From contig JAFSSK010000036.1 in NCBI GenBank assembly GCA_017451045.1, positions 1-49,176 on the forward strand: a stretch of DNA of 49,176 bases, in the 5' to 3' direction. This document shows, one piece after another, positions 782-44,663 of this stretch (position 1 is the first letter of the stretch; every line of letters begins with the position of its first letter). The notes beneath the pieces are model-generated. The model worked only from the letters and a program-made list of their open reading frames with translations. It had not been told where the DNA came from and did no database searches. The translations under genes were made by a program, and so were the position numbers. The DNA is from Clostridia bacterium. Its GTDB lineage: Bacteria > Bacillota > Clostridia > Oscillospirales > CAG-272.

Positions 782-1336
782 ATGCTGGATCTTTTGGATC
801 TTCATAAAAAATTCATCCTGACGCACCTTCACCCGGGCGATACTGCCGTGGACTACACCATGGGAAACGGACACGACACCGAATTCCTTTCGAAGACGGT
901 AGGCCCGGACGGACACGTGTACGCTTTCGATATCCAGGAGCAGGCGCTCTCCTCCACGGCAGAGCATCTGAAAAACACCGGATGCTGTGAGAACTATACG
1001 CTGATACACGCGTCTCACCATCTGGTAAAAGACTACGTCCACGAGCCTGTCAAGGCCGGCATGTTCAATCTCGGCTGGCTTCCCGGCGGAGACAAGTCCA
1101 TCACGACGATGCGGCAGACAACGCTTCCCGCCATCGAGGCAGCGATCGATCTGATGGACAGGGACGCGATCGTCAACATCGCCGTCTACCCGGGCCACGC
1201 GGAAGGCGACGCGGAGGGGAAACTCATCTGCGAGTTCCTTTCCTCGCTGTCCAGATACCGCGTATGCTGCACGAAAGTGCAGATCCTGAATTCCCCGACG
1301 TCCCCCTATTTCATCGCCGTTGAAACAAAACCTTGA
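782..1336 (+). CDS. mnmM: MnmM/YtqB-type class I SAM-dependent tRNA methyltransferase
   Basis: The 184-residue protein is a compact Rossmann methyltransferase. It shows the SAM-binding region VDYTMGNGHDTEFL (about residues 19-32), an acidic motif II with FDIQ, and the family-typical NLGWLPGGDKSITT stretch. Members of this family (YtqB, MnmM) make the last methylation of mnm5s2U34 in tRNA wobble positions; older annotation calls them rRNA methylases. A longer frame exists upstream, but the ATG at 782 has AAGGAG (769-774) at good distance and gives the normal family length. The gene sits between DUF6062 and a VanY-like lipoprotein gene that begins one base after its stop. Confidence 0.8.
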   Translation: MLDLLDLHKKFILTHLHPGDTAVDYTMGNGHDTEFLSKTVGPDGHVYAFDIQEQALSSTAEHLKNTGCCENYTLIHASHHLVKDYVHEPVKAGMFNLGWLPGGDKSITTMRQTTLPAIEAAIDLMDRDAIVNIAVYPGHAEGDAEGKLICEFLSSLSRYRVCCTKVQILNSPTSPYFIAVETKP

Positions 1337-1337
1337 T

Positions 1338-2171
1338 ATGAGAACAAAACAACCGAATTCCATATTGCGCAGAAGCGCTTTGCTCTGTCTTGCATGCCTT
1401 GTCCTTATCCCTGCCCTGCTTGCCTGCCAGGGACTTGTACCGGACCCTGACACGCAGACAGAGACAGAGACGAAGCAGGACGAAGAAAAGTATACCTACC
1501 TGATCAATATAGAGCCCTACCTGCCCTTTATCGATCCCGAGGATCAAAGCCAATACCTTCTGCTTGTAAACAAAGAGCATCCGCTGGGAGAGTCCTATAC
1601 GCCAAAGGATCTTGCGGAACTGGAATGCCGCACGAACGGCGGAAAGACCTTGGAGCTCAATGAAACGGCCGCAAAGGCCCTTTATGCCATGCTTGCGGAA
1701 ATGAATGCCGACGGCATAACGGACGTAAGCGTCACCAGCGCCTACAGGACGTATGCCTACCAGAGCTGGCTTTTCAATTACTATACCGAGCAGGAGACCG
1801 CCTCCCACCCCGACTGGACGCAGCAGCAGGTGAAGGACTATGTCCTTACATACAGCGCGTATCCCGGCACCAGCGAACACCAGAGCGGCCTGTGCGTCGA
1901 TCTGTGGGTGGACGGGATGACGGATCTTGTCAACTACGGTGCTGAGACCTCTTCCCCGCAGGACCCAGGATTCGCGGAAACATTCGCTTATACCTGGCTC
2001 AAGGAGAACGCCTACCGTTTCGGATTCATCCTGCGATATCCCGAGGACAAGGAGTCCGTGACGGGTTATTCGTACGAATCGTGGCATTACAGGTTCGTCG
2101 GAAGGAAAGCGGCTGCGCAGATCTATCAAAACGGCCTTACGCTTGAAGAATATCTTGCAGAGCCACAATGA
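1338..2171 (+). CDS. VanY-like D-alanyl-D-alanine carboxypeptidase lipoprotein
   Basis: The 277-residue protein begins with a lipoprotein signal peptide (RR, hydrophobic core, lipobox LLAC with Cys30) and a Thr/Glu-rich linker, so it is probably anchored on the outer face of the membrane. The C-terminal domain is a peptidase M15/VanY domain: SAYRTYAYQ, the zinc motif SEHQSGLCVD and the downstream ESWHY that carries the last zinc ligand. Such enzymes trim D-Ala from peptidoglycan peptides. The start at 1338 is preferred over an in-frame TTG at 1320, which would put charged residues before the signal peptide. It overlaps the next gene by four bases. A role in vancomycin resistance is not implied, since no VanHAX genes are present. 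Confidence 0.85.
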   Translation: MRTKQPNSILRRSALLCLACLVLIPALLACQGLVPDPDTQTETETKQDEEKYTYLINIEPYLPFIDPEDQSQYLLLVNKEHPLGESYTPKDLAELECRTNGGKTLELNETAAKALYAMLAEMNADGITDVSVTSAYRTYAYQSWLFNYYTEQETASHPDWTQQQVKDYVLTYSAYPGTSEHQSGLCVDLWVDGMTDLVNYGAETSSPQDPGFAETFAYTWLKENAYRFGFILRYPEDKESVTGYSYESWHYRFVGRKAAAQIYQNGLTLEEYLAEPQ

Positions 2172-2188
2172 TCAAGGAGAATAGAAAT

Positions 2189-3070
2189 ATGCAATCGTTA
2201 CAGAAATTCAAAGGGATCTTCCCGGCGCTTGTCACGCCCTTCACGGCCGGGGACGAGCTGAATCTGAAATCCCTGCGGGACATCATCGAAATGAATCTGG
2301 CCGCTGGCGTCAACGGTTTTTACGTCTGCGGGAGCACAGGCGAGGCTTTCCTTCTTACGGACGAGGAACGGAAAGCGGTTTATGAAACGGCTGCAGAAGC
2401 TGTTAACGGACGCGCGACGCTGATCGCCCACGTCGGCTGCGTTTCCACCGCTCAGACCGTTTCTTTCGCGAAATACGCGGAAAAACTGGGGTACGACGCC
2501 GTGTCGGCCGTCGCCCCCTTTTACTACAAATTCAACTTCGAGGAGATCAAGGCGCATTACTTCGCGGTGGCGGACGCGGTCAGCCTGCCGGTTGTCATAT
2601 ACAACGTTCCCGTGTATACGGGCGTCAGCCTGTCCGTCAGCCAGGCCTCCGCGTTCCTGAAAGACGAAAGGTTCATCGGCATCAAGCATACATCCGGCGA
2701 TTATTTCGCGCTTGAGAGATTCAAGCAGGCCTTCCCGGACAAGATCATATACAACGGGTACGACGAGATGTGCCTGGCAGGCCTTTCCATGGGCGCGGAC
2801 GGCGCGATCGGCTCCACGTACAATTTCATGGCGGACAAGTTCTTAAAAATCCGCAGTCTTTTTCAGGCGGGTAAGAGCGATGAGGCGCTGAAAATCCAGC
2901 ATGAAGCCAACCGCATCATCAGCATCGTTTGCGAACTCGGCGTGATCCCCTCCGTCAAGGAGATCCTGACGCAGATGGGTTACCCGTGCGGCGACTGCCG
3001 CAGGCCGTTCGCTCTGCTCGATCCCTCCCAGAAGGAACGTCTGAAAAAGGAAATAACCAATAAGCTATGA
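2189..3070 (+). CDS. nanA: N-acetylneuraminate lyase (DapA/NanA superfamily)
   Basis: The 293-residue aldolase has the (beta/alpha)8 hallmark motifs: YVCGSTGEAFLL near residue 45, VIYNVPVYTG with the catalytic Tyr, and IGIKHTSGDY with the Schiff-base Lys. The KxTSGD form resembles N-acetylneuraminate lyase more than dihydrodipicolinate synthase. It would split sialic acid into N-acetylmannosamine and pyruvate in the cytosol. AAGGAGA lies before the ATG at 2189, so the in-frame ATG at 2168 is less likely. Its stop overlaps the start of a sialidase gene, which supports a sialate-using pair. NanK, NanE and a transporter are not in the window. Confidence 0.85.
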   Translation: MQSLQKFKGIFPALVTPFTAGDELNLKSLRDIIEMNLAAGVNGFYVCGSTGEAFLLTDEERKAVYETAAEAVNGRATLIAHVGCVSTAQTVSFAKYAEKLGYDAVSAVAPFYYKFNFEEIKAHYFAVADAVSLPVVIYNVPVYTGVSLSVSQASAFLKDERFIGIKHTSGDYFALERFKQAFPDKIIYNGYDEMCLAGLSMGADGAIGSTYNFMADKFLKIRSLFQAGKSDEALKIQHEANRIISIVCELGVIPSVKEILTQMGYPCGDCRRPFALLDPSQKERLKKEITNKL

Positions 3071-4068
3071 GACTCATAGATACCAAATGCGTCTGGTCCC
3101 CGGATGCCACCTACCAAAAACACCGGATCCCCGGCATGATCGTGACCGACAAAGGAACGCTGCTTGCCTACACGGAAGCCAGAACAGAAGACAGCGACTG
3201 GGCCAGGATGGATATCCTTCTGTACCGCTCGACGGATCACGGCGAATCGTTCGGGGCGCCGATCGTTCTGGCGCACGGAACAGACGCTCACAAGACCGTC
3301 AATAACCCTGTCATGATGCAGGACAAGGAAGGCAATATCCATTTCCTTCATGCCGAAGACTACGGCATCAACGGGGGCAGGATCCTTCACTATACCAGTT
3401 CCGATGACGGTCTGACCTGGTCTTTGCCCCAGGACATCACCTACGCGACGTTCCCTAGCATGAGAAACGCGTTCGCACTGGGTCCGGGACACGGCATCTG
3501 CACGCATGACGGCATTCTGCTGGTCCCCGTCTGGATGGTACCAAAGGAATTCGGTCAGCCGGTCGATTCGCACGTGCCTTCCATCATAAGCACCTTATAT
3601 TCTCTTGACAGCGGAAAGACATGGGACATGGGCGAAATGCTAGGCGACACGGAGGAAATCGTTAGCCCGAACGAAACGGTCGCGGCAGAGCTGCCGGACG
3701 GGCAGATCTACTTAAACATCCGCAATATGACCAATTACAGAGCCAGGGCTTACAGCGTTACCGGAATCGACGAATGGACGGAATACGGACGCGACAAAGA
3801 TCTTCCAGATCCCGTCTGTTTCGGATCCGTGATCAGATTCCAGGCCGATCTGTACTTTGTAAACTGCAACAGCACCGAAAGACGCGCCAACGTCTGCCTG
3901 CGGAAGAGTTCTGACGGGGGCAGAACGTGGCCGGCCCTTTTGCCCATAGATAAGGACAGAGGCGGTTACGCTGAGATTGCCGCCGACGAAACCGTTCCAC
4001 TTATCTATGTACTGTATGAAGAAGACGGCGGGACATGCTGCCATCTGGCAAGGATCGACCCCACATAA
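3067..4068 (+). CDS. Sialidase-type BNR/Asp-box glycosidase, apparently cytosolic
   Basis: The 333-residue protein is a six-bladed propeller of the sialidase superfamily. It has an RIP motif (R20-I-P) and four Asp boxes: STDHGESF (55-62), SSDDGLTW (111-118), SLDSGKTW (179-186) and SSDGGRTW (281-288). Candidate arginine-triad residues are R20, R219 and R257, with D44 as possible acid/base and Y302 in a GGYAEIA stretch as possible nucleophile. It releases sialic acid or a related sugar by family inference. No signal peptide, anchor or binding module is present, unlike most secreted bacterial sialidases. The ATGA overlap with nanA indicates translational coupling. The exact substrate is uncertain. 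Confidence 0.8.
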   Translation: MRLIDTKCVWSPDATYQKHRIPGMIVTDKGTLLAYTEARTEDSDWARMDILLYRSTDHGESFGAPIVLAHGTDAHKTVNNPVMMQDKEGNIHFLHAEDYGINGGRILHYTSSDDGLTWSLPQDITYATFPSMRNAFALGPGHGICTHDGILLVPVWMVPKEFGQPVDSHVPSIISTLYSLDSGKTWDMGEMLGDTEEIVSPNETVAAELPDGQIYLNIRNMTNYRARAYSVTGIDEWTEYGRDKDLPDPVCFGSVIRFQADLYFVNCNSTERRANVCLRKSSDGGRTWPALLPIDKDRGGYAEIAADETVPLIYVLYEEDGGTCCHLARIDPT

Positions 4069-4073
4069 GACAG

Positions 4074-4110
4074 AAACCGGGATGCGTCCGACATGGTCGC
4101 ATTCCGGTTT
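4074..4110. terminator. Bidirectional hairpin between sialidase and small lipoprotein genes
   Basis: AAACCGGGATGCG at the left pairs with CGCATTCCGGTTT at the right around a short loop, between two convergent genes. There is no long T run on either strand, so terminator strength is uncertain. It touches the stop codon of the minus-strand gene. Confidence 0.5.
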
Positions 4111-4403
4111 CAATATCTTGGCGTGAACGAGCCGTCTCCGGGGTTGTCGAATTCCGGATCTTCACTTCCCGTCCCGCTTTCTGTCTGGGTATCGTTTGTT
4201 TCAATCGTTTGTGAATCGTCTTTTGACTCTTCGGTCTGCTTCTCAATCTCCGTATCATCGTCTGCCTGATAAACGCTTTCTTGCGTATCATGCTTTTTGC
4301 TTTCCGATCCCTGCCCGTCCGGCATAAGTGCTGTGCAGCCGATACAGAAAAAGAGCAAAACAGCCAAAGAAACAGCGATGCCCGCGTGTCTTATATGACG
4401 CAT
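4110..4403 (-). CDS. Small acidic lipoprotein of unknown function
   Basis: The 97-residue product has a signal peptide with a lipobox (FFCIGC, Cys23) followed by a low-complexity tail rich in Glu, Asp, Thr, Ser and Gln, ending in a PRY tripeptide. It looks like a membrane-anchored, disordered surface peptide. The start is supported by GAAGGAG nine bases upstream. It lies downstream of the giant lipoprotein gene on the same strand, with an 11-bp terminator hairpin between them, so it is probably transcribed separately or by read-through. No family is recognised. Confidence 0.65.
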   Translation of the reverse strand: MRHIRHAGIAVSLAVLLFFCIGCTALMPDGQGSESKKHDTQESVYQADDDTEIEKQTEESKDDSQTIETNDTQTESGTGSEDPEFDNPGDGSFTPRY

Positions 4404-4434: not shown

Positions 4435-4469
4435 AAACAATACCCACGGGTTTCCCCGTGGGTATGTTT
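4435..4469 (-). terminator. Strong terminator hairpin after the giant lipoprotein gene
   Basis: A perfect 11-bp stem (ATACCCACGGG at 4440-4450 with CCCGTGGGTAT at 4455-4465) has a 4-base loop. On the minus strand it is followed by TGTTTAAAG, on the plus strand by GTTTTG, so it may work in both directions. It lies 68 bases past the stop of the 1384-residue gene. Confidence 0.7.
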
Positions 4470-4532: not shown

Positions 4533-7500
4533 TTACACACCAACATTTGCAGCAACGATAGCTGTTACAGTAAGCTGAACGAGGTCAGCTCTCTGCGTAG
4601 CATTAGCCATCGTACCGAAGATGGTGTTCAGAGCAGCTTTCTGGTTGTTGATAATGACCTTCAGGCCAAGAGCGCCGGCTTCCTGATCATTGTTCTCATA
4701 AAGCTTCTGAGCGTCTTTGTCTGTGGGCATTTCAGCAGCGAATGCTTTTACAGCATCCTCGAATGCTTTGAGCTGGAGCGCATATTCAGAACCCTCAACA
4801 TAGTAGTTCTTGTAAGCGCCCTGAGCACCGGTAACGAGAGCAGCCTGAGCTTCGCTCAAACCGTTCGCGTTGATCGTAGCAGCGGCCTGGATGCCGGCAA
4901 GTGCGCTGGCACGTGCGTTCTCGTAGGCTTCAACATAGGCGTTGTAAGCGTTTGCTTTAGCCAAAACAGCAGCCACAATGTTGTTCTGAGCAGTTGTTGT
5001 AGCTGTCAGAAGAGCCGTGAAGGCTGTCTTGAATGTTGTCACATCCGCAAAGTTGTTGACGTATTGAGTGAACGATACAGCCTGTTCGTCAATCTTGTAA
5101 GCAGGAACAGCAACAGCTGCAAGCGCTGTGGTTGCATCTGCATAGTATGCGGCAATAGCAGCATTGCGATGGACATACTCGGGATGATTCTCATCAGCAG
5201 CCCAAGGAGCGATCTTGGCAGCCTTGTCGTTAACAAGTGCCGTTCCGTTGGCATCGAGTGCCACGCAGTAGTTCGCGTAAGCAAGCAGTGCCTCTTCGCA
5301 GCTGTCAACATATGCCGTCATTGCAGCTCCGCCTGCATTGAGGAAGTTATTCATTTCCGCCATCAGCACAGTAACATCATTGGCAATAGCGTCACCAACT
5401 GTGGTTTCAGTCTGAGCTGTGAAACCGTTGGCAGCATATTCTTCGAACGTTGCGCTCGCGTAAATGATCTTGTTGTTGGAATCTTTTGCGATGACATCGT
5501 TGTTGTTGGCATCCTTGGTCCAAGTCGGAACCTTGAATGTCAGCGCGAAGTCGAGCAGATTCTTATAACCCTTGTTGTAAATGACCTGAGCAACTGTCTC
5601 ACGGTCTGCAGTTCCATGGATATGATACTGATCATCAGCAACAATACCGGTGTTTGCATCGGAGTAGTATGTGGTCAGGGCTGTGATCTTGCCGGATCTT
5701 GAAACAGTGACGATTGCGTTGTAGGTGTCTTTCAGCATCGCAATCTTGCCTTCCGCTACGAGATCATCGAATGCGCCGGAAGCGGCATATTCGTTGGCAG
5801 CGATGTAGTCAGCAATGTCTGCGGCGGGAGCATATGCAAGAGCATGAGCAAGATCGTTGGTCCCCAGGAAGCTGAGGTAAGGATATTCATCATTAGGATT
5901 GATCGCGATTCCATCAACCAAGTTCTTATACTTGTTGAGGATGGTCTGGATCGCAGCTTCGCTTCCCAGCGCGCCGTTGGCTTCCAGCAGGTTGTGAACC
6001 TGGTTTGTAAAGAAGGCATCAAGTGCATTCTTGGCGGCAGTCACATTAGCTGCTGTGCTTGCATCAGCCACGATAACTTCCAGGTACTTGTCGGATGTCT
6101 CATAGTAAGCTTTCTTCAAAGCGTCTTCCATAGCAGCATATTTAGCTGTATAGGTTGCGTCCGAATCCTTGAGACCGTTGATGACAGCTTTCTGTGCAGT
6201 TGCGAGAGCTGTGAGAACTTCTGTCAGATGTGCCCGGTTGGTAACGGCAGGAGTCTTTGTCTTCTGCTCATCAGTCAGCGCATCAAATTCGCCCTGAGTA
6301 AGATTCGTGCTATGCGCTGTATTATACTCAGCAAGAGTATAGAACACAGCATCGGAATAGTTACCAGCTACGTCTGCGTTTTCATTTCTGTAATAAAGAG
6401 CAGCATATGCATCGATCTTTGTCGTATAGTAGGTAACATCCGGATAAAGCGTATCCTTGAACCAGGATTCAACACAGTCACCCGTGCAAAGAGCAGTGTA
6501 CGTTTTCTCAATGTAAGCATTGAGTTTAGCTGTGAAGGTGGCTTGACCCATCAGGTTGTATCCGTTGTCGGCTGTATTGCCTACAGCGTTCTTGGCAAGG
6601 CCTGTAATAGCAGCCATTGCATCGTCAGGCTCCACTTCGCATGCCTGCAGATAGTAATTGGAAACTCTCTGGTTTGCATATTCGATCGTGGTCATAGATG
6701 CCTGCACATTGTATTTACCCTGCAGGGTCGCAAACTGTGCCTGGTAAGCAGCTGTCAGTTCTGCAACGAGGTTAGAGATCCTTGTTACATACTGCTGTCT
6801 GTATGTGTCATAGTTGTCAGAAGCAGCCTGAGCATTGGCAGCGGCAGCGGCAGCAGCGGCGGCAGCGGCCTGCTGATCGGCAGCACTTCTCAGATCTGCT
6901 ACGAACTGAGTTGCTTTTGCGATCGTTGCAGTTTCCTGAGCCATGAATACTTTGCCGACATTGTTGATGCCTGCTTCGATTGCATTAGCATGGGCCTTGT
7001 AAGCATTTGCATCATTTGCATTAGCAGGAACAATGATAGCGCCCTGGGCGTTATAGTATTGTCCGCCAGCCTGGGTTTCGTTTTTAATCAGGTTGGCATA
7101 TGCTTCAACGATTGCGATGTAGAACTCAACAAAGTCGATCTTGACACCTGCTTCAGCATTGACGTCTTCGATCAGTGCATTGAGGTTATTGTTGTTTTCA
7201 GCCCACTTCAGCGAGCCTTCGCCCTTCGCCACAGTGAACATCTCGGTAATTGTCCCGGCAAGGACGTAATCCTGGTTGCCATAGTGGAGAACCGCAGTCG
7301 CGTTGGCTGTGAGTTCTGTCTGTGCTTCGAGGTACTGAGCGATTGCCAGTTTGGCAGTCTTGACAGCTTCGTAAGCTTCGACGTCTGCGCCAGTTGCGGT
7401 AACGACCTTAACAACATCATATTTCGGTGTCCCGTTAGCTGTAAATGCTTCGGTCAGTTTGCCGAGTGTGGCAGAAGCCAGAACGTCATTCTGGTTTGCA

Positions 7501-8687
7501 TCCTTTGTATAGGTTGTGAACCAGAACACTTCGTTGGCAGCATGAGCAACGGTCTTGTCGAACTCGTATGCTGAGATCTTCCAATGGTCAACATCCCACA
7601 CATACACACCATTGTTTGCACCAAATGTATAGTATGCGGAAGGAGTTACATTGATAGGAGCAAGGAACGCACCGACATAAACCTCGTCGTTCAAAGTGAT
7701 TACATTGTTATTCTTATTCAGGTAAACAGCGGCGATGTCTTTCAGTTCAAGCGTCGATGTCAGACCCTTTGCAAGCGTAACAGCCTCGTCGACCTTGTCG
7801 GAAATGGTCACAACAGCTGCAGCATTTTCCAGAAGCTGGAGAACACTGTCAAGTTCTTCTGTGGACAGAGCGCGCTGAAGAACCAGTTCATAGGTTGCGG
7901 TGAAATGAAGCGTTCCGGGAACGGAAGCAGGAGGATCCCCAGCCATATTGGTTTCGAAATAATCCTGTTCGCCGATTGCTTCAAGGACTTTGCCCCAGTC
8001 ATTACCTGTGTAAACTTTACCGTTGATCTTCTGAATCAGCGCGTTTGCTTTACCGGCAAATGTCTGGATCTCTTCTGTAGCGGCATTCCATTCAAGGTCA
8101 TGTTCTGCCAGATACTGTTTGACGACTGCTTCGTCAACACCAGTAGAGGTGGTAAGAGCCGCGATGGCAGCATCGGTATAAGCCTTTGCCTGAGCAACAG
8201 CTTCAGCGATCGCAGCGGAAGAGTCACCGCCGGAAACGGCAGCGATCATCGCGTCGACCTGTGCCTTCGTGTAGACGTCTGCGCCCTTCACGTAAGCGGC
8301 AAGAGCGTTCGTCAGTTCTGTCTTGGTCGCAAAGCCGGCCAGGTCAGTGGTGGGGATATCACTCTTTTTCGCATAATCAGCAAGGGCTTTTGCAATCTCG
8401 TCCAGAGCCTGAGCCTGTGTGAATGCGTCAGCTGTCTTGACATAATCTGCAAGAGCGTCAGCGAGCAAGCCCTGAACAGTTGCGGTTGTTACTGCACTTG
8501 CAGCTGCGGCTTTAGCTTCATTAGCTGTCTGCTGAGCAGCTTCTGCAGTTGCCTGAGCGGTTTCTGCAGCTTTCTGTGCAGTCGCATCCGAGCATGCTAC
8601 GAGCGCTACTGAAGCGACCATGATTACGGCCAGGATCAGTGCAAGACCACGCAGAATGCTTGTCTTGGATTTGATCTTTGTAAGCAT
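4533..8687 (-). CDS. Giant Ala-rich surface lipoprotein, function unknown
   Basis: The 1384-residue protein has a lipoprotein signal (ALVAC, Cys32), so it should be attached to the outer face of the membrane. Residues 35-75 are an Ala/Gln/Glu coiled coil. Residues about 80-160 contain spaced segments such as ADYVKTADAFTQAQALDEI and AAYVKGADVYTKAQVDAMI, which recall stalk segments of phage tail fibres and trimeric surface fibres. The remaining about 1200 residues are mostly helical, very rich in Ala, Asn, Tyr and Thr, with a poly-Ala run near position 610 and few Cys. No enzyme motif or known domain is recognised. Its base composition is lower in GC than neighbouring genes (about 42% in a sampled line, against about 55% in htpG). 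A LytTR operator and a regulator gene lie directly upstream. Confidence 0.7.
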   Translation of the reverse strand: MLTKIKSKTSILRGLALILAVIMVASVALVACSDATAQKAAETAQATAEAAQQTANEAKAAAASAVTTATVQGLLADALADYVKTADAFTQAQALDEIAKALADYAKKSDIPTTDLAGFATKTELTNALAAYVKGADVYTKAQVDAMIAAVSGGDSSAAIAEAVAQAKAYTDAAIAALTTSTGVDEAVVKQYLAEHDLEWNAATEEIQTFAGKANALIQKINGKVYTGNDWGKVLEAIGEQDYFETNMAGDPPASVPGTLHFTATYELVLQRALSTEELDSVLQLLENAAAVVTISDKVDEAVTLAKGLTSTLELKDIAAVYLNKNNNVITLNDEVYVGAFLAPINVTPSAYYTFGANNGVYVWDVDHWKISAYEFDKTVAHAANEVFWFTTYTKDANQNDVLASATLGKLTEAFTANGTPKYDVVKVVTATGADVEAYEAVKTAKLAIAQYLEAQTELTANATAVLHYGNQDYVLAGTITEMFTVAKGEGSLKWAENNNNLNALIEDVNAEAGVKIDFVEFYIAIVEAYANLIKNETQAGGQYYNAQGAIIVPANANDANAYKAHANAIEAGINNVGKVFMAQETATIAKATQFVADLRSAADQQAAAAAAAAAAANAQAASDNYDTYRQQYVTRISNLVAELTAAYQAQFATLQGKYNVQASMTTIEYANQRVSNYYLQACEVEPDDAMAAITGLAKNAVGNTADNGYNLMGQATFTAKLNAYIEKTYTALCTGDCVESWFKDTLYPDVTYYTTKIDAYAALYYRNENADVAGNYSDAVFYTLAEYNTAHSTNLTQGEFDALTDEQKTKTPAVTNRAHLTEVLTALATAQKAVINGLKDSDATYTAKYAAMEDALKKAYYETSDKYLEVIVADASTAANVTAAKNALDAFFTNQVHNLLEANGALGSEAAIQTILNKYKNLVDGIAINPNDEYPYLSFLGTNDLAHALAYAPAADIADYIAANEYAASGAFDDLVAEGKIAMLKDTYNAIVTVSRSGKITALTTYYSDANTGIVADDQYHIHGTADRETVAQVIYNKGYKNLLDFALTFKVPTWTKDANNNDVIAKDSNNKIIYASATFEEYAANGFTAQTETTVGDAIANDVTVLMAEMNNFLNAGGAAMTAYVDSCEEALLAYANYCVALDANGTALVNDKAAKIAPWAADENHPEYVHRNAAIAAYYADATTALAAVAVPAYKIDEQAVSFTQYVNNFADVTTFKTAFTALLTATTTAQNNIVAAVLAKANAYNAYVEAYENARASALAGIQAAATINANGLSEAQAALVTGAQGAYKNYYVEGSEYALQLKAFEDAVKAFAAEMPTDKDAQKLYENNDQEAGALGLKVIINNQKAALNTIFGTMANATQRADLVQLTVTAIVAANVGV

Positions 8688-8719
8688 AATTTGCCTCCAT
8701 TAATAAGATTTGTGCCTTA

Positions 8720-8725
8720 ATTTTA
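8720..8725 (-). promoter_or_regulatory. Probable -10 box of the giant lipoprotein gene
   Basis: TAAAAT on the minus strand lies 32 bases upstream of the start codon. The hexamer expected at -35 is far from TTGACA, which fits a promoter that needs an activator. The LytTR repeat lies 32 bases further upstream. Confidence 0.5.
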
Positions 8726-8757
8726 CACCAATGATATGTTTTTTGCATTCATCCCGT

Positions 8758-8786
8758 ATAAACGGTGCATATTTCGTACCAACGGG
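8758..8786 (-). promoter_or_regulatory. Predicted LytTR-type direct-repeat operator
   Basis: On the minus strand CCCGTTGGT (8778-8786) is followed, after 11 bases, by ACCGTTTAT (8758-8766). The published LytTR half-site is [TA][AC][CA]GTTN[AG][TG], with two direct copies 12 (plus or minus 1) bases apart. The second copy matches at all positions and the first at all but one, and the spacing fits. The orientation is toward the giant lipoprotein gene. The regulator gene next door (8889-9596) encodes a LytTR domain. Confidence 0.65.
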
Positions 8787-8888: not shown

Positions 8889-9596
8889 TCAGGCGTCAGC
8901 GTAGGTCCGGAACACCGTTTTTGCCTCGGCGTAGCGGTTCTTGGCTATTGCCACCCTGTCTCCGTTGCACATCGTAAACTGATATCTGTCAATGCGCGTG
9001 GCAAATTTCAGGTTTACAATGAAACTGCGGTGTGAACGGTAGAACTGCCGCGGCGAAAGCTTGTTGTAAGTGTCGACCAGCGAACCGTACCCCACGAACA
9101 CATGATTCATCGTGTGAACGTCGAGTTCCGTTCTGAACACCTCCACGTAGAGAATGTCCTCAACACTGATCGAGATCTTACCGCCTTCAGTCCCTTTGAG
9201 CACAATCGAGGGCTTCTGGCGATGCTTTTTGGCCACGTAGCGGAAAGAATCACGCAGCTTCTTTTTGTTCAGATCCGTCGTCGGCAAGTATCCGGCTGGG
9301 AAAACGTCATATGCCTCGAGTGCTCGGGTCATATCCTCCGTGCAAAACACCACATCGAACTCATACCCTTCGTTCCGAAGCCCTCTGGCGAAATCAATAC
9401 CGTCACTATCTCCGATTCTGGTACCCAAATAAAGGAGCTGGATCTGATGCTCGTCCATCGCTCTGCGCAAGGAGCCCAGATCGGGAAAAACCTCAATGCC
9501 GGTGTCCAGGACGATCTCTTCAGACAGAACCTGGATCTGCGCTTGCAATTCTTCCGTCAACTGCCGGCTCTCAAAGCATATTGCAATGTTGAACAT
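8889..9596 (-). CDS. LytTR-family transcription regulator with degenerate receiver domain
   Basis: The 235-residue protein has an N-terminal CheY-like receiver fold (about 1-120) and a C-terminal LytTR DNA-binding domain (about 130-233, with the typical FYRSHRSFIVNL). In the receiver the phospho-acceptor Asp is replaced by Gly58 (LYLGTRIGDSDG where LDxxMPxxDG is expected). The acidic pair after beta-1 is absent (IAICFES), and the conserved Lys after beta-5 is Thr (GYLPTTD). Phosphorylation by a kinase is therefore unlikely, and no histidine kinase is nearby. It probably binds the direct repeat upstream of the next gene and controls the giant lipoprotein. GAGGAG precedes the start codon. Confidence 0.85.
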   Translation of the reverse strand: MFNIAICFESRQLTEELQAQIQVLSEEIVLDTGIEVFPDLGSLRRAMDEHQIQLLYLGTRIGDSDGIDFARGLRNEGYEFDVVFCTEDMTRALEAYDVFPAGYLPTTDLNKKKLRDSFRYVAKKHRQKPSIVLKGTEGGKISISVEDILYVEVFRTELDVHTMNHVFVGYGSLVDTYNKLSPRQFYRSHRSFIVNLKFATRIDRYQFTMCNGDRVAIAKNRYAEAKTVFRTYADA

Positions 9597-42158: not shown

Positions 42159-42515
42159 ATGAAAAAGAATCTGATCCGTTTCACAGCGATTGCGCTGCTC
42201 GTCGTGATGGTAGTGTCCGTTCTGGCTTCCTGCGGCGGCCCTTCCGGAACCTACGGTGACACTTCCGGCATCGGTGGTGTCGAGTACACCTTCAAAGGCA
42301 GCAAGGTCACCATCAAAGTGGTTATCGCCGGTTTTGCCAAAGAGTTCGACGGCTCATACAAAATGGGCAAAGATGACGATGGCAACAAGACCATCACCAT
42401 GACGTTTGAGGGCAGCGACGCTTCTTCTTACTCCGGCACACACACTTATGCCGAAGGCAAAGATGACACCGGCGCTTACATCTCACTTGACGGCGTTAAA
42501 CTGTACAAGAAATAA
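42159..42515 (+). CDS. Small secreted lipoprotein of unknown function
   Basis: The 118-residue protein has a lipoprotein signal (VLASC, Cys25). A short beta-rich domain with alternating polar and hydrophobic residues (YTFKGSKVTIKVV and KTITMTFEG) follows and ends in LYKK. It resembles small single-domain lipoproteins of clostridia built like a lipocalin-type beta barrel, but no family is assigned. ATG 42159 has CAAGGAG at good distance; the longer frame from 42063 covers the promoter and is not used. It is a single-gene unit with its own promoter and terminator. Confidence 0.8.
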   Translation: MKKNLIRFTAIALLVVMVVSVLASCGGPSGTYGDTSGIGGVEYTFKGSKVTIKVVIAGFAKEFDGSYKMGKDDDGNKTITMTFEGSDASSYSGTHTYAEGKDDTGAYISLDGVKLYKK

Positions 42516-42532
42516 GCCAATTTATCCAGATC

Positions 42533-42566
42533 GCGCATCCCGGCTTCCGGGGTGCGCTTTCTGTTT
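42533..42566 (+). terminator. Terminator of the small lipoprotein gene
   Basis: GCGCATCCCGG and CCGGGGTGCGC form a stem with a short loop (42533-42557, one G-T pair), followed by TTTCTGTTT. Confidence 0.75.
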
Positions 42567-42573
42567 CTGCCTC

Positions 42574-43941
42574 TTACCTGCCGGTGATCCTGTCCGCGAC
42601 GTACAGTCCCATCGCACCGGACTGGGAAAGCCCGCGGGTAATGCCGGATCCGTCGCCTATGAGGTACATGTTGTCTGCGATCTCGAAATCGCCGTTGTGT
42701 TTCGGGCACAGCGAGTAGTATTTGTTCTCGCATCCGTAAAGGAGCGTGTCGTCGTTGGCGGTCCCCGGCGCCACCGCGTCGAGCGCGTAGATCGTTTCGA
42801 TGATATTTGTAAGGGCCCGGTACGGCATCACGATGGAAAGATCCCCCGGGAACGCCTTCATTGTGGGCCGGACGGTCCCGCCCTGCAGCCTGTGCGCGTT
42901 GGTGCGCCTGCCCCTGATCAAATCCCCGAACCGCTGTACCATGATGTTGCCTTCCGCGGCGAAGTTCATGTTCCTCGCGATGTTTTCGGCATATTCGGTC
43001 GGCTTGTTGAAATCGCCTTCGAAATGGATCGAGGAAAGGATCGCGAAGTTGCAGTTCTCCGTCTTCTTGTCCGCGTCTGCGAACGAGTGCCCGTTCGCGG
43101 TGATGACGCCGTGGTTGTTCTCGGCCGATACGAGACCGCCCTGGTTGAAGCAGAACATACGCGTCCTGTCTTCGAACGTCTTGGTGCGGTACAGGATCTT
43201 CGGCTCGTAGATCTGGCTGGAGAACTCCCGCCAGATGATATCCTTCATCTCGACGCGAACGCCGATGTCCACCGAGTTCGCGCCCATTTCCACGCCGAAC
43301 TTCTGGCACGTCTTCTTGACGAAATCCGCGCCGCTTCGGCCCGTGGCAATCACAAGGCACTTCGTCCTTATCTTTTCCGCCGGGCTGAGCGAAAGTTCGT
43401 ATGCGCCGTCTTTTTCGTCTATGTCCAGACACTCCGCTCCCGTACGCATCTCTGTTCCTGCCGCCTTCAGGTGCGCGATCAGTGCGCCCATCGTGCGCAG
43501 GTTGCGGTCCGTTCCGAGATGGCGGACGTTCATATCCAGCAGCCGCAGGTTGTGCTGCAGGCATTTCAGTTTGAGTTCCTCGGACGATCTGTACAGCGGC
43601 GGATAGTCCGGCGTGAACCCTTCCAGGATCTTGTCCACGCGGGTGATATACTCCATGGCCATATCCTCGCCAAGCTCGCTGCCGATGTTCCCGCCGTACG
43701 TTGTCCCGAGGTTGAATTTGCCGTCCGAGAAAGCGCCGGCGCCGGCGTACCCGCTTGTGATGCTGCAGATCTTGCAGTGCAGGCATGCCTTGTCCTTCCC
43801 GGCAGGACAGTGCCTTTTCTCCAGCTCGTATCCTTTTTCCAGTATGACCACTTTGGACTGCGGGCGGTTCTGCATGATCTGGTATGCGGCCATCAGTCCC
43901 CCGATACCGCCGCCGATAATGGCAACATCGTAATTCGTCAT
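42574..43941 (-). CDS. FAD-dependent oxidoreductase (COG2509 type)
   Basis: The 455-residue protein starts with an FAD/NAD(P)-binding dinucleotide fold (VAIIGGGIGGLMAAY) and an ILEKG acidic turn. A Cys-containing segment (CPAGKDKACLHCKIC) follows, a second ATGRSGADFV near residue 200, and the FAD-closing MYLIGDGSGITRGL at the C-terminus. It belongs to the poorly characterised flavoprotein dehydrogenases of COG2509, related to BaiN/HI0933-type enzymes. The CxxC group could hold a redox or metal site, which is inference. It is transcribed convergently with the small lipoprotein gene. Confidence 0.82.
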   Translation of the reverse strand: MTNYDVAIIGGGIGGLMAAYQIMQNRPQSKVVILEKGYELEKRHCPAGKDKACLHCKICSITSGYAGAGAFSDGKFNLGTTYGGNIGSELGEDMAMEYITRVDKILEGFTPDYPPLYRSSEELKLKCLQHNLRLLDMNVRHLGTDRNLRTMGALIAHLKAAGTEMRTGAECLDIDEKDGAYELSLSPAEKIRTKCLVIATGRSGADFVKKTCQKFGVEMGANSVDIGVRVEMKDIIWREFSSQIYEPKILYRTKTFEDRTRMFCFNQGGLVSAENNHGVITANGHSFADADKKTENCNFAILSSIHFEGDFNKPTEYAENIARNMNFAAEGNIMVQRFGDLIRGRRTNAHRLQGGTVRPTMKAFPGDLSIVMPYRALTNIIETIYALDAVAPGTANDDTLLYGCENKYYSLCPKHNGDFEIADNMYLIGDGSGITRGLSQSGAMGLYVADRITGR

Positions 43942-43976
43942 TTTCTTTTTCCTCTAAAAGAGTTCCTTTCGTCTGC

Positions 43977-44005
43977 CGGCGGCGCGCGGCCGCCGTTTTT
44001 TGTTT
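43977..44005 (+). terminator. Terminator-like hairpin facing right between two divergent genes
   Basis: CGGCGGC (43977-43983) pairs with GCCGCCG (43989-43995), followed by TTTTTTGTTT on the plus strand. No plus-strand gene ends near it; the nearest is about 1.4 kb upstream. It could stop antisense transcription or act as a leader hairpin on the minus strand. Confidence 0.55.
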
Positions 44006-44013
44006 GCCCCGTC

Positions 44014-44042
44014 TTGACCCGGCGGAAAAAGCCGAGTATAAT
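44014..44042 (+). promoter_or_regulatory. Promoter of the HD hydrolase gene
   Basis: TTGACC (44014-44019) and TATAAT (44037-44042) are 17 bases apart, 39 bases before the start codon. Confidence 0.8.
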
Positions 44043-44081
44043 GGACAGGAAGAATAGTTCATTTTTATAAGGAGGATGCCC

Positions 44082-44663
44082 GTGACAAACCGAGAAAGAT
44101 TCCTGGACATCTATAAGACCAATATCAAAAGAGAAGGAGCCGATCAGCTGCTTGAATGGCTCATTTCCGACAGAAGCGACTTTTTCACCGCTCCGGCCAG
44201 CAGCAAATTCCACGGTGCCTATGAAGGCGGTCTTCTCGAACACAGCCTGAACGTTTACGACTGTCTAAGGGACAACGCGCCGCGCCTTGCCAGGAAATAC
44301 AATTTCCGCTTCTCGGACGAGAGCATGGCGATCGCAGCGCTGCTGCACGACGTCTGCAAGGTGAACTTCTACAAGGTGGAGATGCGGAACGTCAAACGCA
44401 ACGGCGTCTGGGAACCCGTTCCCTATTACACCATCGATGACAACCTGCCCTACGGGCACGGAGAAAAATCCGTTTACATCATCTCCGGGTACATGAAGCT
44501 CACGCGGGACGAGGCTTTCGCCATCCGCTTCCACATGGGGTTCTCGGCAACGGACGATCCGGGCACCGTCGGAAAGGCGCTCGAGATGTTCCCGCTGGCG
44601 TACGCGCTGTGCTGCGCCGACATGGAAGCGTCCTACTACCTGGAAGGTTCCATCAAAGGCTGA
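44082..44663 (+). CDS. HD-domain phosphohydrolase
   Basis: The 193-residue protein has the HD fold: His in EHSLNVYD, the HD pair in LLHDVCK, a further His in GHGEKS and Asp in CADMEAS. It should be a metal-dependent phosphohydrolase; the substrate (nucleotide or RNA-related) is unknown. A GTG at 44082 is preferred because AAGGAGG (44069-44075) lies six bases ahead, while the ATG at 44076 directly touches this site. It has its own promoter and terminator. Confidence 0.8.
   Translation: MTNRERFLDIYKTNIKREGADQLLEWLISDRSDFFTAPASSKFHGAYEGGLLEHSLNVYDCLRDNAPRLARKYNFRFSDESMAIAALLHDVCKVNFYKVEMRNVKRNGVWEPVPYYTIDDNLPYGHGEKSVYIISGYMKLTRDEAFAIRFHMGFSATDDPGTVGKALEMFPLAYALCCADMEASYYLEGSIKG

Follow-up and report, generated by a model that had tools for sequence, protein, structure and literature searches.

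A conserved pair of LytTR-type repeats between an aspartate-less regulator gene and a giant lipoprotein gene in uncultured gut Clostridia

Several described regulators offer points of comparison for the locus discussed here. ComE of Streptococcus pneumoniae works with the kinase ComD. In LytTR sites, the two repeats are mostly separated by 12 bp, with a minority of sites having 11 or 13 bp between them, and at LytTR-activated promoters the repeats favor a position 10 bp upstream of the −35 element (PMC6193735). The phosphorylation site has been altered in several cases: with glutamate in place of the aspartate, ComE (D58E) is constitutive and CdtR (D61E) is partly active (PMC12482169), AlgR D54E is active (PMC4064291), and the ComE protein of Streptococcus mutans works even as D60A (PMC12323615). 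There are also receivers that lack the aspartate; glutamate is the commonest replacement among them (26%), with glycine accounting for 11% (PMC4395418). Here, we examine a pair of direct repeats that is likely to be the operator of the LytTR protein encoded beside it, a protein that would act as a kinase-independent activator serving one promoter and, through it, one abundant, fast-evolving surface lipoprotein.

The repeats lie in a stretch of 49,176 nucleotides from a Clostridia bacterium (contig JAFSSK010000036.1), which we refer to as the window. The features needed for the argument are as follows, from the regulator toward the lipoprotein:

8889-9596, minus strand: LytTR regulator gene, 235 aa, with a degenerate receiver (from Pfam, a receiver alignment and AlphaFold2)
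8913-9176, minus strand: LytTR DNA-binding domain at residues 141-228 of the regulator, of which it is the conserved part (Pfam PF04397, E 2.8e-15)
8778-8786, minus strand: distal half-site CCCGTTGGT, 8 of 9 positions against WMMGTTNRK, first base C
8758-8766, minus strand: proximal half-site ACCGTTTAT, 9 of 9 positions against WMMGTTNRK, 11 bp from the distal half-site (period 20)
8743-8748, minus strand: weak −35 element ATGCAA, 3 of 6 positions against TTGACA, 9 bp after the proximal half-site
8720-8725, minus strand: −10 element TAAAAT (TGTAAAAT), 17 bp from the −35 element, with TGTA.AAT in 15 of 15 loci
8694-8698, minus strand: Shine-Dalgarno sequence GGAGG, within a conserved leader
4533-8687, minus strand: giant lipoprotein gene, 1384 aa, 21% Ala and 0.9% Arg, with the codon usage of a highly expressed gene
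8592-8687, minus strand: lipoprotein signal peptide and lipobox LVAC (Cys32), from the sequence; the signal/N-terminal region is the part common to relatives
8238-8591, minus strand: residues 33-150 of the lipoprotein, an Ala-rich heptad-like start and then ALADYVK..DVYTKAQVDAMIA repeats (from BLAST)

On the minus strand, 8758-8786 reads CCCGTTGGT-ACGAAATATGC-ACCGTTTAT, with a spacer of 11 bp, and the pair sits in the 201-bp gap between the LytTR gene (8889-9596) and the lipoprotein gene (4533-8687), both on the minus strand. A preliminary description had reported two direct half-sites 11 bases apart on that strand, with 8 and 9 of 9 consensus positions, facing a 1384-residue lipoprotein gene and adjacent to a gene for a LytTR protein. 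The DNA and its translations bear all of this out (ORF 4533-8687 with lipobox LVAC, Cys32; ORF 8889-9596 with PF04397 at E 2.8e-15). The same description called the operator “textbook”, a word that does not fit: the 11-bp spacing (period 20) is a minority form, fixed in this clade, and the usual spacing is 12 bp (PMC6193735).

Taken alone, the window’s repeat pair would be suggestive only. One in 2000 dinucleotide shuffles of the window’s intergenic stretch equals the pair when the published consensus is applied at periods 20-22, and the 49-kb window contains a single period-20 match to a looser consensus, where 0.23 would be expected. The latter figure is what speaks for the reading in which the repeats arose by chance or were simply inherited, and regulate nothing. 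That reading becomes very improbable once relatives are compared: across 15 loci, the CC, TT and last T of the half-sites are nearly invariant and the spacing is strictly conserved, although the flanking intergenic sequence has diverged, and locus L040 has an identical G-to-A change in both half-sites.

The 15 orthologous loci were assembled from three sources. Ten orthologs, with 36–54% identity, came from searching 395 genomes of the family to which the window belongs with the regulator. Among named genomes, a search with the single regulator sequence found no close relatives; an alignment query succeeded, yielding 4 further loci that were held out when the motif was defined. With the window itself, the loci represent several genera of one Clostridia family, and the named-genome records are MAGs labeled Clostridia or Oscillospiraceae, ruminant guts being the source of several. 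An order-wide profile search for the regulator found, outside the family, only generic LytTR regulators among the matches listed, the best scoring 158 bits vs 364 bits for the window protein. The 15 orthologous regulators form one clade (support 100/99).

Regulator, site and giant lipoprotein gene follow one another in identical order and strand in 15/15 loci, and each of the 15 regulator-lipoprotein gaps contains two CCCGTTNRT-type repeats at period 20. Over the best pairs of the 15 loci, mismatches add up to 24 of 270 positions at period 20, compared with 87–103 at periods 17–19 and 21–25, and with 1000 shuffles of each gap, none reached the observed site score in any of the 15 loci. All 4 held-out loci carry both the gene pair and the site. 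The preliminary description had named absence of the repeat upstream of orthologous genes in related genomes as the outcome that would count against it; the repeat is present in 15/15. Conservation on this scale settles the question: the pair is functional sequence.

The repeat might be bound by another factor, such as the second LytTR protein of the same genome (contig C135) or an unrelated regulator, with the neighboring LytTR gene a bystander. The existence of that second gene is one point in favor, and another is that parts of the site can be read as a different kind of operator. The window half-site CCGTTTATACGG (8749-8766 region, covering the proximal half-site and the −35 side) also reads as a dyad, and three loci from one related genus (L037, L039 and L040) have a 7-bp inverted repeat, TTCATCG-AAAAA-CGATGAA, over the proximal half-site. 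In L036, an inverted repeat CATAC-TAAA-GTATG covers the proximal half-site and the −35 side. We rejected the dyad or inverted repeat as a common feature of the operator, since it is confined to the window and its closest relatives (L036-L040) and not seen in more distant loci; outside those closest relatives, most loci have no dyad. Moreover, the site and the orthologous regulator occur together in all 15 loci, lipoprotein genes without a LytTR neighbor lack the site, and the second LytTR gene belongs to another type of operon, next to a membrane-protein gene of its own. We therefore consider binding by another factor quite unlikely and take the adjacent LytTR protein as the probable ligand of the site.

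The direction of regulation is suggested by the anatomy of the promoter. In 15/15 loci, the paired 9-bp direct repeats, with their minority spacing of 11 bp, lie upstream of the −35 element: after the proximal half-site come 9 or 10 bp, a poor −35 element matching TTGACA at 3–5 of 6 positions, 17 bp, a −10 element of the type TGTA.AAT, and then a similar leader with GGAGG. In the window, transcription would start near 8713. With the proximal half-site only 9–10 bp from the −35 element, the LytTR protein could, once bound there, act as a repressor of the lipoprotein gene, for instance by standing in the way of RNA polymerase on the −35 side. However, repeats upstream of a poor −35 element are the known arrangement of LytTR activators (PMC6193735), and the codon usage of the lipoprotein gene suggests high expression. 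If the regulator activates a weak promoter, relatives that lack the site would be expected to have a near-consensus or consensus −35 element, and this is what is seen. Two loci, L133 and L137, encode a lipoprotein with a homologous N-terminus but have no adjacent LytTR gene; the leader of L133 is closely similar to that of the site-bearing loci. Neither has the site (the best pair has 8–10 mismatches), and the −35 element is TTGACT or TTGACA, 17 bp before the −10 element. The good −35 element of the site-less relatives points to activation by the regulator, as support rather than proof, since a fairly good −35 element (TTGAAA) also occurs in the site-bearing loci L007, L041 and L042 and the contrast rests on two comparators. 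On balance, repression is unlikely, and activation remains the reading that we carry forward.

The preliminary description had predicted a system of one regulator and one target and had proposed scanning the whole genome for the repeat. A pattern covering the observed variation has exactly one match in each of 11 genomes, and 10 of these 11 matches are at the lipoprotein promoter, while the reversed control pattern has 2 matches in all 11 genomes together. Because the pattern was built from these sites, the informative part of this result is the absence of other matches rather than the presence of the sites. Scanning the 395 genomes with at most 1 mismatch gave nine matches that are lipoprotein promoters, the remainder being no commoner than matches to the reversed pattern. 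The window’s own genome has four other matches with 2 mismatches, approximately the control level; this genome is 82% complete, and further targets are possible. Among 37 non-orthologous LytTR genes, no period-20 site and no recognized downstream lipoprotein gene were found. Present in 15/15 orthologous loci and essentially unique in each of 11 genomes, the site supports the predicted scheme, in which one regulator would control one surface target through one operator. Apart from the spacing, two points of that prediction need correction: the regulator is not a normal response regulator (its phospho-acceptor is Glu in 14 orthologs and Gly in the window), and a further LytTR gene, unrelated to it, is present in the same genome.

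Some matches and LytTR genes outside the main set are worth recording. The exception among the 11 genomes is G305, where the single pattern match is at L095 1501-1529 (G305:C4:47144-47172, minus strand), with the pair CCCATTCATATGCATATTCGACCGTTCGT. This pair matches the pattern better than the lipoprotein-promoter site of G305 does, is followed by a hairpin, and lies ~250 bp ahead of a gene for a secreted protein. That gene has a consensus promoter of its own, and the pair may be a second target, a relic or chance. In L055 and L058, a CCCGTT-type pair with 3 mismatches and the usual spacing (period 21) lies upstream of ordinary Asp-containing LytTR genes, and such pairs are possible autoregulatory sites, contrasting with the period of 20 at lipoprotein promoters. 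The second LytTR gene of the window’s genome (L001 1285-2522, contig C135) is directly followed by a gene for a membrane protein that is LiaF-like by our reading of its sequence, which would place this operon in the LytTR Regulatory System type.

The regulator has a DNA-binding domain that is easily assigned and a receiver that is not canonical. Its PF04397 match is over the cut-off, and the structure of the LytTR domain matches the AgrA LytTR-DNA complexes 4xqn and 3bs1. The AlphaFold2 model of the whole protein (pLDDT 88.7) has full-length ComE (4cbv) as its best PDB match, and the predicted fold of the N-terminal part matches receivers. The phospho-acceptor Asp and acidic pocket of a canonical response regulator are nevertheless lacking in the window protein, where Phe8-Glu9 replaces the acidic pair, Gly58 occupies the phospho-acceptor position and the conserved Lys is lost. 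Position 58 is Glu in the 14 other orthologs, and Asp in 37/37 other LytTR receivers. Because the receiver is aspartate-less across the whole clade, we infer that the regulator probably works kinase-independently. No kinase was found next to the regulator among the window’s neighbors by a Pfam scan, or by eye in the ORF lists of the other loci. The glutamate of the orthologs invites comparison with the phosphomimetic mutants, an argument that is not directly applicable to the window receiver, which has Gly58. Autoregulation through this motif is unlikely, as the 350 bp upstream of each of the 15 regulator genes contains no period-20 pair with fewer than 5 mismatches.

Loss of the aspartate need not mean a constitutive circuit. 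The receiver could be a pseudo-receiver responding to something other than phosphate (a ligand, redox or a protein partner), a reading that competes only with the constitutive part of the best explanation and to which we give a substantial, though lesser, chance. The receiver fold has been kept, acidic residue 8 and Lys are retained in 14/15 orthologs, and pseudo-receivers such as RitR use redox signals (PMC12632262). On the other hand, the window copy has also lost Asp8 and Lys, and no conserved partner gene was recognized beside the regulator in the window’s Pfam scan or the locus ORF lists. The reading of the regulator as a kinase-independent activator is compatible with either form of output.

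The gene that the operator faces encodes a protein with a bacterial lipoprotein signal and lipobox Cys (MLTKIKSK...VALVAC, residues 1–32), similar in 14 relatives. The lipoproteins of the loci range from 559 to 1511 aa and are Ala-rich and Arg-poor, and the window protein aligns with others only at the signal peptide and first ~150 residues; residues 33–150, likely a coiled-coil stalk, are the sole stretch of the mature protein that BLAST can align to relatives (residues 3–148 are 48% identical to the L133 protein). One subgroup has an Ig-like Big_3 domain at the start instead. The only Pfam match over the cut-off in the lipoproteins was Big_3 in L080 (L072 has a weaker one), and a search of viral contigs found no lipoprotein homologs. 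The AlphaFold2 model of residues 185–1384, mostly helix, has a mean pLDDT of 36.6 and was not used. Regulator, operator and leader have been kept while the lipoprotein bodies diverged past recognition.

Codon usage suggests that the lipoprotein is very abundant and very highly expressed, because rare codons are avoided and T-ending codons favored. In 15/15 loci, lipoprotein genes have 0–11 rare codons per 1000, vs 28–69 in neighboring genes, and T-ending codons exceed the neighbors’ average, with the smallest margin in L063. GC3 of the lipoprotein genes is similar to that of neighbors in most loci, so the codon bias is hardly due to base composition. For the window gene, the shift is in the direction of EF-G; the codon reference consisted of EF-G and neighboring genes, as ribosomal protein L2 was not found in the incomplete genome.

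Several observations concern the surroundings of these genes. Two long plus-strand open frames, 5844-7574 (576 aa) and 7584-8612 (342 aa), are antisense to the lipoprotein gene and are probably shadows of its codon bias. A 97-aa probable lipoprotein (4110-4403) is encoded directly after the giant lipoprotein gene on the same strand, and a perfect 11-bp hairpin (4440-4465) separates the two. Just beyond the giant lipoprotein gene, at 1320-4068, are genes for a VanY-type carboxypeptidase, a member of the dihydrodipicolinate synthase/sialate lyase family and a BNR (sialidase-like) protein. Elsewhere in the window, the ORF at 42476-44110 (544 aa; GC3 0.43; 152 rare codons per 1000) is far from its neighbors in composition and looks foreign, or not to be a real gene.

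Taken together, these features suggest the following circuit. Two LytTR domains would bind the two CCCGTTNRT-type half-sites, which are approximately two helical turns apart, and the bound pair, directly upstream of the weak −35 element, would recruit RNA polymerase to the lipoprotein promoter. Having lost the phosphorylatable Asp (Glu in the rest of the clade, Gly in the window), the activator would probably need no kinase, and output would then depend on how much regulator is present or on a signal that does not involve phosphate. What the sequences show directly is the site with its spacing and position, the order of the genes, the conservation and uniqueness of the site, the receiver residues and the codon bias; binding, activation as its direction, kinase independence and abundance at the surface are what we infer from them. 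A more ambitious version, which we advance tentatively and to which we give a little less than an even chance, is that the locus is a self-sufficient cassette: a LytTR activator held permanently “on” by the Asp-to-Glu change, with its own operator of 20-bp period, kept solely to drive a surface lipoprotein that ranks among the most abundant proteins of the cell. On this view, promoter, leader and signal peptide remained the same, whereas the body of the protein was exchanged or changed so far that it can no longer be recognized, being of a coiled-coil type in some genera and of an Ig-like Big_3 type in others.

If correct, the proposed circuit would offer a clear example from nature, in several genera of uncultured gut Clostridia, of a response regulator that no longer depends on its kinase and serves a single promoter. 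The product varies but the regulator and operator do not, so the DNA element could be used to locate a major variable surface protein of these bacteria from genome sequence alone. The clade-wide Asp-to-Glu change would also make the phosphomimic question testable in evolution, beyond mutants.

The locus resembles several known systems, each in part. Like the regulator here, CdtR of Clostridioides difficile is a LytTR response regulator with no known kinase partner, and its gene adjoins the gene set that it controls. CdtR is reported not to control its own gene (PMC12482169), and here no such motif lies upstream of the regulator; however, CdtR keeps Asp61 and has further targets, whereas here the Asp has been lost clade-wide and the target is a surface lipoprotein. 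ComE is the best full-length structural match and binds paired direct repeats, but it controls competence genes including its own operon. In the LytTR Regulatory Systems HdrRM and BrsRM of S. mutans, paired repeats 11–13 bp apart likewise lie just upstream of the −35 element (PMC6193735). Those systems, in contrast, are operons of a LytTR protein and a membrane inhibitor that activate themselves; here, the next gene encodes a secreted lipoprotein rather than a multi-pass membrane protein, and the 350 bp upstream of the 15 regulator genes have no such period-20 repeats. The half-site (CCCGTTCGTC in L043) is almost identical to CCGTTCGTC, the core of the AlgR box of Pseudomonas aeruginosa, although AlgR sites do not form evenly spaced pairs, many genes are under their control, and the Asp54 of AlgR can be phosphorylated. 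Finally, ChxR and RitR have receivers without a phospho-Asp, as the window regulator does, but carry OmpR/PhoB-type DNA-binding domains instead of a LytTR domain. Each part of the circuit is known in kind; the combination is new.
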